64,000 bases of DNA. Origin: Flavisolibacter ginsengisoli DSM 18119. GTDB taxonomy: Bacteria > Bacteroidota > Bacteroidia > Chitinophagales > Chitinophagaceae. The position numbers and the translations under genes were made by a program. This document shows, piece by piece, positions 6,658-11,516 of the stretch (position 1 is the stretch's first letter; each line of letters opens with the position of its first letter). Below the pieces are notes generated by a model. It was not told the DNA's origin and did no database searches. It saw nothing but the letters and a program-made list of their open reading frames with translations. The stretch is taken from positions 248,001 to 312,000 of the forward strand of contig NZ_FQUU01000003.1 of the NCBI RefSeq assembly GCF_900129295.1, read 5' to 3'.

Positions 6658-7836
6658 ATGAACCTGAGGCAGTTATTTCTTCAACATGTGGCTCAAACTT
6701 CAACCGCTCCCCTGGCCCTTGAGATAGTTAAAGCAGAGGGTTGTGAATTATTTGATGCCTCAGGAAAAACTTACCTTGATCTTATAGGAGGGATCAGTGT
6801 TGCCAATACCGGGCATAGGCATCCTGCAGTAGTAAAAGCTATAAAAGACCAGGTTGATGCCTACATGCATGTTATGGTATATGGTGAATTTGTGCAAAGT
6901 CCACAGGTTCGGTATGCACAATTACTTACGCAACACCTGCCACCATCTTTAAACTCTGTTTATTTTACCAATTCAGGTGCTGAAGCCGTGGAAGGGGCAA
7001 TGAAACTTGCAAAAAGAATAACAGGCAGGACTGAAATTGTGGGTTTTGTCAATTCCTACCATGGCTCTACCCAGGGTGCCCTTAGTCTGATAGGAAGTGA
7101 ATATTGGCGCAATGCCTACCGGCCATTGTTGCCAGGAATAAATCATCTGAATTACAACTCATTTAAGGATCTGCAATTCATTACAGAAAGAACTGCCTGT
7201 GTTATAGCAGAAACTGTGCAAGGGGAAGCTGGTGTGATTGTCCCCGAAAATAACTGGTTAAGGGCCGTGCATGATCGCTGTAAGGAAGTAGGCGCTCTCT
7301 TTATCCTGGATGAGATCCAGGCAGGTTTTGGCCGTACTGGTAAACTCTGGGGATTTGAAAATTTTGATGTAATTCCGGATATTTTACTTTTAGGAAAGGC
7401 ATTAGGAGGGGGTATGCCCCTGGGTGCTTTCATTGCTGATAAATCTTTAATGGATCATTTTACTGATAACCCGGTGTTGGGCCATATAACCACCTTTGGT
7501 GGCCACCCTGTATGCTGTGCTGCAGGCAAAGCAGCCTTTGAGGTTTTGCTACGGCAGCAATGGGATGTAAAACAAAAGGTAGCGCTGTTTACATCGTTGC
7601 TAATACACCCCCAAATAAAAGCGGTAAGGTCTTTTGGCCTGTGGATGGCTATTGAGTTTAATGATTTTGATGCCTGCAAAAAAGTTATTGATCATTGTAT
7701 CCAAAGAGGTGTCATTTCAGACTGGTTTTTGTTTGCTTCCAATTGTTTGCGCATTTCTCCGCCCCTTGTTATTACAGAGCAGGAGTTAAGGCAGTCCGCT
7801 GCCATTATTTTGGAAGCCATTGAAAATAATCCATGA
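6658..7836 (+). CDS. Class III PLP aminotransferase (acetylornithine/4-aminobutyrate type)
   Basis: 392 residues, fold type I PLP aminotransferase of class III. Signature: TNSGAEAVEGAMKLAKR (phosphate-binding loop), SYHGSTQG, the LDEIQAGFGRTG stretch holding the PLP-binding Asp, and the Schiff-base lysine K247 in LLLGKALGGGMPLG, followed by TTFGGHPVCCAAG. Length fits acetylornithine and related aminotransferases; substrate cannot be told from sequence, and no arginine genes flank it. Two ATGs compete: 6628 (10 residues longer) and 6658, where the family-typical N-terminus MNLRQLFLQHVAQTS begins; I prefer the second. It stands alone, divergent from the gamma carbonic anhydrase. Confidence 0.85.
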   Translation: MNLRQLFLQHVAQTSTAPLALEIVKAEGCELFDASGKTYLDLIGGISVANTGHRHPAVVKAIKDQVDAYMHVMVYGEFVQSPQVRYAQLLTQHLPPSLNSVYFTNSGAEAVEGAMKLAKRITGRTEIVGFVNSYHGSTQGALSLIGSEYWRNAYRPLLPGINHLNYNSFKDLQFITERTACVIAETVQGEAGVIVPENNWLRAVHDRCKEVGALFILDEIQAGFGRTGKLWGFENFDVIPDILLLGKALGGGMPLGAFIADKSLMDHFTDNPVLGHITTFGGHPVCCAAGKAAFEVLLRQQWDVKQKVALFTSLLIHPQIKAVRSFGLWMAIEFNDFDACKKVIDHCIQRGVISDWFLFASNCLRISPPLVITEQELRQSAAIILEAIENNP

Positions 7837-7874
7837 TTATTGATCACATAACTATAGAAAGTTTTCAGGAGGAC

Positions 7875-7905
7875 TTGTTAATATGAAAACTTTACTACAA
7901 CTTTG
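7875..7905 (+). promoter_or_regulatory. Putative promoter of the membrane protein/HTH_34 operon
   Basis: TTG at 7875-7877, 20-nt spacer, then CAACTTTG at 7898-7905 (one mismatch to TAnnTTTG). The -7 element overlaps the left arm of the palindrome at 7900-7916, and the ATG follows 18 nt later, so a protein bound there would block transcription. Assignment is inference. Confidence 0.4.
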
Positions 7906-7916
7906 AATTACAAAGT
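7900..7916. promoter_or_regulatory. Palindromic operator 1: ACTTTG-N5-CAAAGT
   Basis: Perfect 6-bp arms ACTTTG (7900-7905) and CAAAGT (7911-7916) around AATTA. The same arms recur at 8901-8917 before creD with a nearly identical spacer (AATTG). The two sites flank the gene for a winged-helix regulator, which makes them its likely operators. A TTG start at 7903 would fall inside the site and is disfavoured. Confidence 0.7.
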
Positions 7917-7923
7917 GCTTTTT

Positions 7924-8568
7924 ATGAGTGTTAAAGACCAACACCTGGATACCCTGGAGGATATACGGCGAATGATGAAACGCTCCAGCCGGTTCATTTC
8001 TTTGAGTGGCCTTAGCGGGATAGCTGCTGGCGTATGGGCTTTGATAGGTTCTTATTTGGCTTTTACATGGATAGGTAAATACCGCAATAACCTAGATAAT
8101 GTAAGAAACAATGATCTCGATCTTCACCAGCTACAGGTAGATCTGCTTCTGCTCGCCATTGCCATTCTTATAGTAGCTGTTATTTCAGCCCTGTATTTCA
8201 CCTGGCGTAAAGCTGGCAAGGACAGGCTGCCACTTTGGGATCACACAGCTAAAATGCTCATACTCAACATAGCAATTCCCCTGGTAGCCGGTGGTTTATT
8301 TATCCTGGCCATGCTGCAATATGATGAATGGCGTTTTATTGCACCTGCTTCCCTGATCTTTTATGGTTTAGCGCTGGTCAATGGTGGTAAGTACACATTA
8401 AGCGAGATCCGATACCTTGGTATCTCTGAAATTGTTCTTGGCCTGGTTTGTACCCAGTTTATTCACTATGGTTTATATTTTTGGGCAATTGGTTTCGGTA
8501 TACTGCATATTATATATGGCTTTGCCATGTGGAGAAAATATGAAGGAAGTAGAGTAGCGGAAGATTAA
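7924..8568 (+). CDS. Multi-pass membrane protein upstream of HTH_34 regulator
   Basis: 214 residues from the ATG at 7924 (the longer frame starts with TTG inside the operator). A charged N-terminus (MSVKDQHLDTLEDIRRMMKRSSRF) is followed by about six hydrophobic segments, including SGLSGIAAGVWALIGSYLAF, LLLLAIAILIVAVISALYF, MLILNIAIPLVAGGLFILAML and EIVLGLVCTQFIHYGLYFW. I recognise no enzymatic motif. The gene ends 10 nt before the regulator, so the two form one operon. Proteins of this type are regularly encoded with HTH_34 regulators and CreD in Bacteroidota; a role in envelope stress is inference from context only. Confidence 0.8.
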   Translation: MSVKDQHLDTLEDIRRMMKRSSRFISLSGLSGIAAGVWALIGSYLAFTWIGKYRNNLDNVRNNDLDLHQLQVDLLLLAIAILIVAVISALYFTWRKAGKDRLPLWDHTAKMLILNIAIPLVAGGLFILAMLQYDEWRFIAPASLIFYGLALVNGGKYTLSEIRYLGISEIVLGLVCTQFIHYGLYFWAIGFGILHIIYGFAMWRKYEGSRVAED

Positions 8569-8578
8569 ACATAAAGCT

Positions 8579-8884
8579 ATGGCTGTTAATAATCCCATAT
8601 CAGGCTTAAATAAAATATTCGATAACCGAATACGGTTGGGAGTTATGAGTATCCTGACAGTGAATGAAGAGGTCAGCTTTAATGATCTGAAACAGATGCT
8701 TGAGGTTACAGATGGCAACCTGGCAACGCATTTACAAACACTGGAGGAAAGTAAGCTGATAAAAGTGCATAAAGGTTTTATAGGGCGCAAAACAAATACA
8801 ACGTATGCAATTACAAAGACAGGCAGTAAATCGTTTAACGAACATATTGAAGCATTGGAAAAAATGATCAAAGGCTTTAAATAA
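8579..8884 (+). CDS. Winged-helix transcriptional regulator (HTH_34 type)
   Basis: 101 residues, one winged-helix DNA-binding domain: helices in NKIFDNRIRLGVMSIL and FNDLKQMLEVT, recognition helix DGNLATHLQTLEESKLI, and a beta wing KVHKGFIGRKTNTTYAITKTG. This matches the short MarR/ArsR-like HTH_34 family; there is no separate ligand or phospho-receiver domain. A C-terminal helix (SFNEHIEALEKMIKGFK) should form the dimer interface, consistent with recognition of a two-fold symmetric site. Matching palindromes precede its own operon (7900) and the downstream creD gene (8899), suggesting autoregulation plus control of creD. The effector is unknown. Confidence 0.88.
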   Translation: MAVNNPISGLNKIFDNRIRLGVMSILTVNEEVSFNDLKQMLEVTDGNLATHLQTLEESKLIKVHKGFIGRKTNTTYAITKTGSKSFNEHIEALEKMIKGFK

Positions 8885-8898
8885 TTTTTTTTGTACTT

Positions 8899-8919
8899 GT
8901 ACTTTGAATTGCAAAGTAC
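8899..8919. promoter_or_regulatory. Palindromic operator 2: GTACTTTG-N5-CAAAGTAC
   Basis: Eight-bp perfect arms (8899-8906 and 8912-8919) around AATTG, 44 nt before the creD ATG. The inner 17 bp match operator 1 at 16 positions. A TTTG inside the left arm (8903-8906) sits 17 nt before TATATATG (8924-8931, one mismatch to TAnnTTTG), so the palindrome probably overlaps the -33 element of the creD promoter. Confidence 0.75.
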
Positions 8920-8962
8920 TTTCTATATATGAAATAACCCGGCAACTTATCAATCAAATTAT

Positions 8963-10351
8963 ATGAATACTGAAACAATTGTACAAAACGTATGGACCAG
9001 AAGTAAATTACTCATCAAATCAATGATCATTGGTATCCTTGTCCTGGTCCTGCAGATACCGGCAATGTTTGTAAGAGATGTTATTGCCGAAAGAGAACAG
9101 CGCCAACAGGATGCCATAGCTGAAGTAAGTAGCAAATGGGCGGGCCACCAGGTGCTAACAGGGCCGGTCCTTGTCATTCCCTATTGGCAGTCCGCACCCG
9201 ATTCATCTGCCAGGCAGGTGAGAACCAGGGAGTATGCCTACTTTTTACCCGATAAACTGGATATAAGTGCCAACCTAACCCCCCAGGAAAGGCATAGGGG
9301 TATATATAAGGTAATGTTGTATTCATCTGAAGTTACCCTATCAGGCAGCTTTTCCCAACCCGCACTTCAGCGTCTTAATATTGCTCCTGCGGATGTGATC
9401 TGGAATGAAGTAACTATCAAACTTCCTGTTTCTGATAATAAAGGTTTGAATGAAGAGATCTATATGAAATTAAATGATTCTTCAATTGCCATGACACCTC
9501 AGACTTCTGCAGATCCTGCCATAGACAATGCACTACAGGGGGATATTCCAATTACTGGCCCGGATGATCTTAAAGAACTTCGCTTTTCTTCTTCATTTGT
9601 TATCAATGGTTCTCAACAAATTTCCTTCACTCCCATTGGAAGGAATACTACGGTGAACCTTGCCTCAACCTGGCCTCATCCAAGTTTCATTGGAGATGTA
9701 TTACCACAGAGCAGCCAGGTGAACACTAAAGGGTTTAAGGCTTCATGGAAAAGTGCTTTCCACAAACACAATTTCCCCCAACAGTGGAAAGGTAATGCCT
9801 ATAGCTTGTCCGATTATAAATATACTTCCGGAGGTAATATACAGGCTATGCCAATAGATGTCGCAAAACCAACAACTATTAATAATATTAATACAGCCTC
9901 TTTTGGTGCCGATCTTTTTGTGCCCGTTAATGGGTATCAAAAAACCATGCGGTCAATTAAATACGCAGCATTGGTTATCCTCCTCACTTTTGCTTCCTTC
10001 TTCCTTATTGAAACAACCAACAAGCGGTCCATACACCCATTTCAATATGGGCTTATCGGTCTTGCGCTGATCCTGTTTTATACCCTTTTGTTATCATTTT
10101 CTGAATATATCAGCTTTAATATCTCATATGTCATTGCCTCCTTATTTACCATAGGACTAATAAGTTGGTTTGTAAGAGGTTTATTGGCTTCCTCCCGATT
10201 GACTGTCTTTCTATCAACTATCCTGGTGCTGCTTTATGTATATGTATTCACCCTATTGCAACTACAGGATTACTCATTGCTCCTGGGAAGTATTGGGCTG
10301 TTTATAACTCTTGCACTTATCATGCATTTTTCACGAAAAATTCAATGGTAA
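8963..10351 (+). CDS. creD: CreD-family inner membrane protein
   Basis: 462 residues with the CreD layout: an N-terminal membrane helix (LLIKSMIIGILVLVLQIPAMFV), a large extracytoplasmic beta-rich domain of roughly 300 residues opening with the family-typical RDVIAEREQRQQDAIAEVSSKWAG and GPVLVIPY, then about six closely packed C-terminal helices from YAALVILLTFASFFLIETT onward. In E. coli CreD belongs to the CreBC regulon and affects envelope integrity and colicin/beta-lactam phenotypes; the molecular activity is unknown. No CreB or CreC is present here; instead the HTH_34 regulator 78 nt upstream, and the palindrome in between, suggest a different control circuit. Confidence 0.92.
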   Translation: MNTETIVQNVWTRSKLLIKSMIIGILVLVLQIPAMFVRDVIAEREQRQQDAIAEVSSKWAGHQVLTGPVLVIPYWQSAPDSSARQVRTREYAYFLPDKLDISANLTPQERHRGIYKVMLYSSEVTLSGSFSQPALQRLNIAPADVIWNEVTIKLPVSDNKGLNEEIYMKLNDSSIAMTPQTSADPAIDNALQGDIPITGPDDLKELRFSSSFVINGSQQISFTPIGRNTTVNLASTWPHPSFIGDVLPQSSQVNTKGFKASWKSAFHKHNFPQQWKGNAYSLSDYKYTSGGNIQAMPIDVAKPTTINNINTASFGADLFVPVNGYQKTMRSIKYAALVILLTFASFFLIETTNKRSIHPFQYGLIGLALILFYTLLLSFSEYISFNISYVIASLFTIGLISWFVRGLLASSRLTVFLSTILVLLYVYVFTLLQLQDYSLLLGSIGLFITLALIMHFSRKIQW

Positions 10352-10607
10352 CCCTATTTTATAAAGTTGAATTAAAAACCAATCATTTATCTGGGCTGGA
10401 AGAAGGCCAGATGCCTTATGGACGGGCTTTGAAAAATTTTCTTATTTGGCAAAATAGCATAAATCGCTACCATGGTTAGAATCAACTATTGCTCGGACTA
10501 TAATTCCGGTATAGAAATCCTTAAGTCTTATTTCTGCCATAAACATATAAATGTATATGAATGGGTAGGCTTTTGGGGACCTGAAAAGCTTTGAAACCTC
10601 CGTTCCG

Positions 10608-10646
10608 GGGTAGGATACCCATTGTTTTCCCTATAGCTAAGAGCTA
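10608..10646. repeat. Two small hairpins left of the large palindrome
   Basis: GGGTA-gga-TACCC (10608-10620) and TAGCT-aag-AGCTA (10634-10646). Each has a 5-bp perfect stem and a 3-nt loop. The segments around them also repeat CCTCCGT (10597-10603 and 10647-10653), so this looks like part of one structured element together with the following palindromes. Confidence 0.55.
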
Positions 10647-10663
10647 CCTCCGTCCTATCTAAA

Positions 10664-10700
10664 GTATAGATACTGCGTGATCATCACGCAGTATCTATAC
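10664..10700. repeat. Perfect 37-nt palindrome
   Basis: Arms of 18 nt, GTATAGATACTGCGTGAT (10664-10681) and its exact reverse complement (10683-10700), around one central C at 10682. As RNA or single-stranded DNA this would be a long hairpin with a tiny loop. There is no adjoining T-tract, so it is not an ordinary terminator. Confidence 0.85.
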
Positions 10701-10738
10701 CGCAGGTATAGCTTTAATAGGGAGGAGCTATACCGCAG
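10695..10738. repeat. Nested inverted and direct repeats right of the palindrome
   Basis: Inverted repeat GGTATAGCT (10705-10713) / AGCTATACC (10726-10734), plus a direct repeat CTATACCGCAG at 10695-10705 and 10728-10738. The first direct copy overlaps the right arm of the 37-nt palindrome, so alternative pairings are possible. Confidence 0.7.
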
Positions 10739-10947
10739 ACTGCCTGGAACTTGCTTTTTCTATAAATTGTAGTGATCATCGAATCAGAACAAAAACAGGT
10801 AATAGGAACGCTATTAGTATTAAATCATTTTATTGAATAATAATAATGGCCAGCCATTAAGGTTATCATTATCAATAGTATAAGTTTGTAATTATCATGA
10901 ATGCCGGTATTTCAACAACCTGGAATAACTGGTAAATTCAGTAAATA

Positions 10948-11319
10948 ATGGAAAGAAGAAGATTTTCATGGAAGGAGCGGGGAAATAGTTTCAGCTATGC
11001 CTGGCAAGGCATAAAAGGTCTTTTGCTTACTGAACATAATAGCTGGATTCACCTGGGTTTGACCTTATTGGTAATTCCTCTTGCTATTTACTATCGTATT
11101 ACCCGTTTAGAATGGATGTTCCTTATTATAGTAATGGCAATGGTTTGGGCAGCTGAATTGTTCAATACTGCACTGGAGAAATCTATGGACTTTATATCAA
11201 AGGAAAACCATCCCCAGATCAAGCTTGTTAAGGACCTGGCAGCTGCCGCTGTTCTTATTTCTGCACTGGCCGCCTTGGCTGTAGGTGCCATTATTTTCAT
11301 TCCAAGGATTCTTGGATAA
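10948..11319 (+). CDS. dgkA: Diacylglycerol/undecaprenol kinase family (DgkA-like)
   Basis: 123-residue integral membrane kinase of the DgkA family. Amphipathic N-terminus (FSWKERGNSFSYAWQGIKGLLLTEHNSWIH) is followed by three membrane helices: LGLTLLVIPLAIYY, WMFLIIVMAMVWAAELFNTALE and DLAAAAVLISALAALAVGAIIFI. The active-site signature E70-LFNTALE-K and the KDLAAAAV segment are intact. The family phosphorylates diacylglycerol (Gram-negatives) or undecaprenol (Gram-positives); the substrate here is not decidable from sequence. It stands alone after the palindrome-rich gap. No strong terminator directly follows; the hairpin at 11479 may serve it. Confidence 0.92.
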   Translation: MERRRFSWKERGNSFSYAWQGIKGLLLTEHNSWIHLGLTLLVIPLAIYYRITRLEWMFLIIVMAMVWAAELFNTALEKSMDFISKENHPQIKLVKDLAAAAVLISALAALAVGAIIFIPRILG

Positions 11320-11478
11320 CCGGCTGGTTAATTACCATGATTTCTGCTATAATTAGCATTTCTTAGGCCATAGCTATTACATTATTTAAACAGTAGGCGG
11401 TCAATAAGTACATTGGGAGTGTGACTGGAAACTCCTGTTCAACTAATAATCAAGGTCATTTTCCACAGGCATCAAATA

Positions 11479-11516
11479 AAAAGAGGCTTTCTTACATTGA
11501 TAAGAAAACCTCTTTT
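11479..11516. terminator. Bidirectional intrinsic terminator
   Basis: 16-nt arms AAAAGAGGcTTTCTTA (11479-11494) and TAAGAAAaCCTCTTTT (11501-11516), one mismatch, 6-nt loop. The A and T tracts serve both the converging minus-strand TolB/barrel gene (stop at 11540) and dgkA upstream. Confidence 0.85.

Follow-up and report, generated by a model that had tools for sequence, protein, structure and literature searches.

The locus studied here lies in a 64,000-nucleotide stretch of Flavisolibacter ginsengisoli DSM 18119 DNA (the window), and all genes and sites of the window described below are on the forward strand. The first gene (7924..8568) codes for a 214-amino-acid membrane protein that has no Pfam match and is predicted to be all-helical. 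It is followed by the gene of a 101-amino-acid winged-helix regulator of the HTH_34 family (8579..8884), and then by creD (462 amino acids, 8963..10351). A diacylglycerol kinase gene (dagK; PF01219, 10948..11319), possibly a further member of the regulon, is found 596 nt past creD. Between creD and dagK lies an inverted repeat (10664-10700) whose 18-bp arms match perfectly around a loop of 1 nt; it is possibly a terminator or a repeat element, and, if it is a terminator, read-through from creD into dagK becomes questionable.

Direct reading of the window revealed two copies of ACTTTG-N5-CAAAGT where the preliminary description had placed them. The first copy, ACTTTG-AATTA-CAAAGT (7900-7916), together with a conserved GCTTT tail constitutes predicted operator 1 (7900..7921), whose right arm ends 7 nt before the ATG of the membrane protein gene. 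The second copy, ACTTTG-AATTG-CAAAGT (8901-8917), together with an ACTTT tail constitutes predicted operator 2 (8901..8922), and its arms extend to 8 bp (GTACTTTG, 8899-8906, and CAAAGTAC, 8912-8919). The AATT said to mark the spacer is indeed present in both window sites, but spacers in relatives, while A/T-rich, are variable. The window contains two exact cores, compared with a mean of 0.01 in 100 dinucleotide shuffles, none of which reached two; genome-wide, however, the core with at most one mismatch was not enriched (15 places vs. 25 for a reversed control). Within the window, the eight matches with up to two mismatches were likewise unremarkable next to a shuffle mean of 4.7. The genome-wide count was therefore dropped as evidence, and the case presented below rests on position and conservation rather than on genome-wide counts.

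The exact core occurs at four places in the 4.68-Mb genome: the two window sites, a site within a coding ORF on contig C6, and a site at position 88003 of contig C21, upstream of a gene coding for a 96-amino-acid membrane protein, with a one-mismatch tandem copy at 88030. These tandem C21 operators (1501-1549 of stretch L004, from the same genome) are 27 bp apart, and only the second carries the CTTT tail. The genome has a second HTH_34 gene, and a near-site some 2.3 kb away from it, at position 35170 of contig C14, was rejected because it is inside a coding ORF. In this region (L016, C14:35976-39215), the second HTH_34 gene stands behind genes for two membrane proteins of about 200 amino acids, an arrangement resembling that of the window operon, but no such palindrome was found in the 140 nt read at the operon head; HTH_34 and membrane proteins may form a recurring pair that employs different operators.

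The regulator matched the complete HTH_34 profile (PF13601) with 92.4 bits (gathering score 27), and CreD was identified by both PF06123 (480.7 vs. 23) and NF008712 (460.5 vs. 275). HTH_34 matches were also present in 13 of 14 control genomes, in 11 of them above the cut-off. The structural model of the regulator (pLDDT 89) contains a winged helix and a 21-residue C-terminal helix, and the nearest structures in profile and fold searches were 1UB9 and proteins of the PadR family. Pyrococcus horikoshii PH1061 (PDB 1UB9) was the top fold match and the only chain at E ≤0.001 in the profile search (E 4e-13); it has the same 100-residue winged helix, though it is archaeal, and to our knowledge neither an operator nor a target of PH1061 is known. 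PadR proteins (Rv3488, LmrR, and 5H20 from Bacteroides fragilis) are small one-domain repressors that resemble the regulator in fold and size and probably in mode of action, but the PadR operator sequence differs from CTTTG-N5-CAAAG, and the regulator fell outside the family by profile (TIGR03433, 19.6 vs. a cut-off of 101.8; at E 0.001, Pfam likewise gave no PadR hit). ArsR/SmtB metalloregulators also share the winged helix, but the weak match to their profile was below the curated cut-off (NF033788, 31.2 vs. 55). The TDGNLA motif, in the predicted recognition-helix region, was invariant in 30 sequences. Seven helices were predicted in the 214-amino-acid membrane protein; its N-terminal stretch, LxxLxDIKxMMERSSRF, is conserved and modeled with lower confidence, and a fold search with the model returned no match at E ≤0.001. 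That this protein senses something is a guess.

Conservation was evaluated at 80 loci from named genomes, picked by the HTH_34 protein alone (the best 80 of 573); some of these genomes also belong to other sets used here, and two loci were cut too short for site 1. Pedobacter and Chitinophaga are among the genera in which the locus was found. With at most one mismatch, the palindrome was found upstream of the orthologous operons as anticipated, site 1 in 76 of 78 loci and site 2 in 69 of 80. The best of 119 palindromes with permuted arms reached 3 (site 1) and 2 (site 2) loci, and only the 5-base spacer worked in this set, as spacers of 2-4 and 6-9 bases yielded 0 or 1 loci each. Among the 11 loci without site 2, the closest sequence had two mismatches in 2 and three to five in 9. 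A second set was built around creD. CreD was found in 65 of the 198 genomes of the order, and stretches were taken from 60 of these 65 as well as from the locus itself (L052), with four partial or weak matches left out; one stretch (L110) was excluded, since CreD was absent from it by tblastn, and 60 loci remained. The membrane protein, HTH_34, and CreD occur together in 23 of the 60, and within these three-gene loci site 1 is present in 22 and site 2 in 21 (≤1 mismatch). In L085, a small extra ORF (2578-2820) comes before the membrane protein gene, and the operator (2441) precedes the extra ORF.

The −7 consensus of Bacteroidota sigma-A-like promoters is TAnnTTTG, according to the accessible text of PMC9723704. 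The candidate boxes of the operon promoter in the window are weak: CTTG (7874..7877) as the −33 element and, 20 nt further, CAACTTTG (7898..7905) as the −7 element, which has its TTTG in common with the left arm of operator 1. The proposed position of site 1 over the −7 box thus agrees with the predicted promoter. In 58 of 78 loci from relatives, the left arm is preceded by a TTTG that begins 24-26 nt before it, resulting in the arrangement TTTG-N18..20-TnACTTTG. This spacing puts the left arm in the −7 box and suggests that the HTH_34 regulator represses its own operon, in keeping with the autoregulation put forward in the preliminary description; as far as sequence goes, the operator overlaps the regulator's own predicted core promoter, as in autoregulated winged-helix repressors. 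At site 2, a T8-G tract directly 3′ of the regulator stop codon (8885..8893), which is kept in relatives, is a candidate −33 or upstream element of the creD promoter, and in 54 of 71 sites the TTTG of this tract begins 11-12 nt before the arm. The best −7 element there is a weak TACTTT box (8917-8924) that overlaps the right arm at a long spacing of 23 nt. The preliminary description had put this palindrome on the −33 of creD; it appears to occupy the space between the possible −33 and the weak −7 instead of just covering the former, and the promoter register at operator 2 is uncertain. Since both registers would set the bound protein on the core promoter, repression is the likely sign of control: operators over a −7 element or inside a core promoter usually mean repression.

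We consider it about 85% probable that the HTH_34 protein binds CTTTG-N5-CAAAG as a dimer and represses its own operon, creD, and membrane genes in trans until it is released by a membrane-related signal. In this mechanism, the 101-residue protein would contact two half-sites whose centres are 10-11 bp, or about one helical turn, apart. Bound at operator 1, which spans the predicted −7 box and transcription start of the membrane protein/regulator operon, and at operator 2 in the creD promoter, the dimer would block RNA polymerase at both promoters. Repression by the HTH_34 protein would in this way cover its own operon and creD, possibly along with dagK downstream, and would reach in trans to further genes, mostly those coding for membrane proteins; a signal related to the membrane would then release the dimer. 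Activation of the creD promoter by the bound protein, or repression at one site combined with activation at the other, is unlikely. A conserved T8-G tract and a weak −7 element flank the palindrome at site 2, as in some promoters that need help, but the palindrome would be located within the core promoter, and at site 1 an identical operator stands over the −7 element, a geometry that is usually repressive.

Genomes were searched with an extended site, ACTTTG-N5-CAAAG-YR-CTTT, learned from the sites at creD loci. Of 146 genomes from the same family, 97 have the extended site, while a reversed control was present in none. A strong match to the HTH_34 subfamily profile (E ≤1e-40) was detected in 94 of the 97 site-positive genomes and in 4 of the 49 site-negative ones (Fisher p 3e-29; because of species kinship, the counts given here are non-independent, and p values are overstated). 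The three site-positive genomes without a strong HTH_34 match (G225, G240, and G283) are 83, 91, and 69% complete. When the first base may also be G and a single mismatch is tolerated, each of the four HTH_34-positive genomes that lack the extended site has a match near the HTH_34 gene. In G217 and G251 it lies 180 and about 690 nt upstream, respectively, and in G246 and G236 it lies 21-22 nt downstream of the region matched by the profile. In 12 genomes, this relaxed one-mismatch pattern gave 10 matches vs. 6 for the reversed control, and it also gave one match in two of eight genomes without a strong intact HTH_34; given these control matches, only its position beside the HTH_34 gene is counted here. 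In a sample of 395 genomes from the phylum, the extended site was found in 92, of which 91 have a gene of the HTH_34 subfamily (E ≤1e-25), while just one of 256 HTH_34-less genomes (G518) has the site; 48 genomes contain HTH_34 without the exact extended site, and the reversed control was absent from the matches listed.

The presence of creD had no such relation to the site. The seven CreD-less family genomes with an intact HTH_34 that were examined keep two or three sites each (G101, G130, G140, G171, G177, and G189) or one (G125), while no exact extended site was found in the four examined CreD-less genomes without an intact HTH_34 (G020, G081, G095, and G107). Of 37 creD loci without a nearby HTH_34 gene, only four have a site when up to one mismatch is tolerated, and all four genomes have HTH_34 elsewhere (4 of 18 such genomes vs. 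0 of 19 without HTH_34, p 0.046). At 19 HTH_34 loci away from creD, the site was present in 12 with at most one mismatch and in 16 with at most two, the latter count being soft, since shuffles yield about 0.4 chance two-mismatch matches per 5 kb; no site within two mismatches was found at L243, L245, and L248. In five genomes (L236-L240), the locus has no match to the membrane protein, and a near-palindrome with one or two mismatches is found at the start of the HTH_34 frame, where the argument is one of position, because two-mismatch matches are common by chance. The HTH_34 copy of G107 (L249) has an internal stop, and its locus contains neither a membrane protein match nor a palindrome within two mismatches; G289 (L188), of the same genus, differs in retaining HTH_34, the membrane protein, and the palindrome, and G107 has apparently lost the whole system. 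The operator, then, tracks the HTH_34 regulator, and neither creD nor the membrane protein. These data bear on a very improbable alternative, in which the sites are bound by another protein, either of the PadR or MarR type or the membrane protein acting via a partner, while the HTH_34 gene is just a linked neighbour. The membrane protein gene is in the same locus in 80 of 80 cases of the HTH_34-picked set, and the fold is common to many winged-helix families. Against this, the site follows HTH_34 across the phylum sample even where a creD site is unlinked from it, loci without a membrane protein match keep the near-palindrome, and a decayed HTH_34 gene is accompanied by absent sites.

In 150 sites with up to three mismatches, the inner CTTTG and CAAAG were nearly invariant and the outer base varied; with just two exceptions, CAAAG was followed by TG, CA, or TA. 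The conserved site is CTTTG-N5-CAAAG with a one-sided YR-CTTT tail, i.e., judged by its sequence it is longer on one side than first described. The CTTT is conserved in sites of both types; as it is kept although the two promoter registers seem to differ, it may be part of the footprint of the regulator. It is extremely improbable that the palindromes act instead as RNA hairpins in both transcript leaders, influencing translation or mRNA stability: the palindrome could fold in RNA, and the first ATG is found 6-10 nt past the right arm of site 1 in 78 of 78 relatives (7 nt in the window), but the arms are fixed in sequence and not merely complementary, permuted palindromes being rare at these places; in the 150 sites, a view limited by the three-mismatch threshold, 65 one-sided changes (50 of which turn the outer pair into A-C) stand against 4 that affect both sides, with pairing kept in 3; under the predicted −33/−7 register site 1 would be transcribed only in part; no Rfam match was found in 7700-11500 at gathering scores; and co-inheritance with a DNA-binding protein would be unexpected.

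We inspected 77 first genes located within −100 to +300 nt of sites in 60 stretches from the family, which were chosen from among the matches listed and include the pairs around the HTH_34 gene. Fifty-one of the first genes code for neither the membrane protein nor HTH_34, and, by simple hydropathy, 42 of these 51 have at least two predicted membrane helices, and the remaining 9 have fewer than two; among 106 background ORFs, taken from the upstream side of the sites, 22 have at least two. CreD itself makes up 11 of the 51, and homologues recur, so that the entries are not independent. CreD, the target proposed in the preliminary description, is just one of several, as such sites also stand ahead of other membrane protein genes. 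In 7 of the 11 creD-first loci, a diacylglycerol kinase homologue comes second or third among the genes listed behind the site, and in L171 the diacylglycerol kinase gene (PF01219) has an operator of its own. Other recurrent or notable targets are DUF1361 (PF07099) proteins near diacylglycerol kinase, DUF4153 proteins, and a family of membrane proteins of 96 to about 200 amino acids, to which the protein behind the tandem C21 sites belongs; members in other families (L216, L217, and L219) are 43-50% identical to it and are also targets. The regulon thus probably extends beyond creD, mostly to genes of membrane proteins.

In the accessible parts of two reports on CreBC-CreD (PMC4689548 and PMC5402928), creD expression in Escherichia coli and Stenotrophomonas depends on a regulator encoded nearby. 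Here, by contrast, the gene next to creD codes for a winged-helix protein of a single domain that goes with a palindromic site, and no two-component genes could be recognised among the ORFs listed around it. Neither an HTH_34 operator nor a Bacteroidota CreD regulon was found among the literature matches listed, subscription papers lying mostly outside the search; a search with the HTH_34 short name and Pfam accession found no paper, and in the accessible text of PMC12045153 the only match to CreD was CRediT. In kind, the predicted system resembles known ones, namely compact autoregulated winged-helix repressors. A bolder version has a small but real chance of being correct: the regulon would be a phylum-wide Bacteroidota response to membrane stress or composition, in which the co-transcribed 214-amino-acid protein, with its conserved LxxLxDIKxMMERSSRF stretch, is the sensor that holds and releases the HTH_34 dimer, an operator of three half-sites (CTTTG, CAAAG, and CTTT) loads more than one dimer, and the role that CreBC plays in proteobacteria is filled without a two-component system.

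The HTH_34 proteins described here are probably at the centre of a previously undescribed, self-controlling regulon that is widespread in Bacteroidota. This HTH_34 subfamily gains a predicted operator, a promoter geometry, and a list of targets, and the prediction is made precise enough to be proved wrong by the way in which site and regulator occur together across the phylum. The operators that CreD shares with diacylglycerol kinase and with further membrane proteins place these in one group and so offer a handle on the function of CreD and of several unnamed membrane proteins in Bacteroidota.
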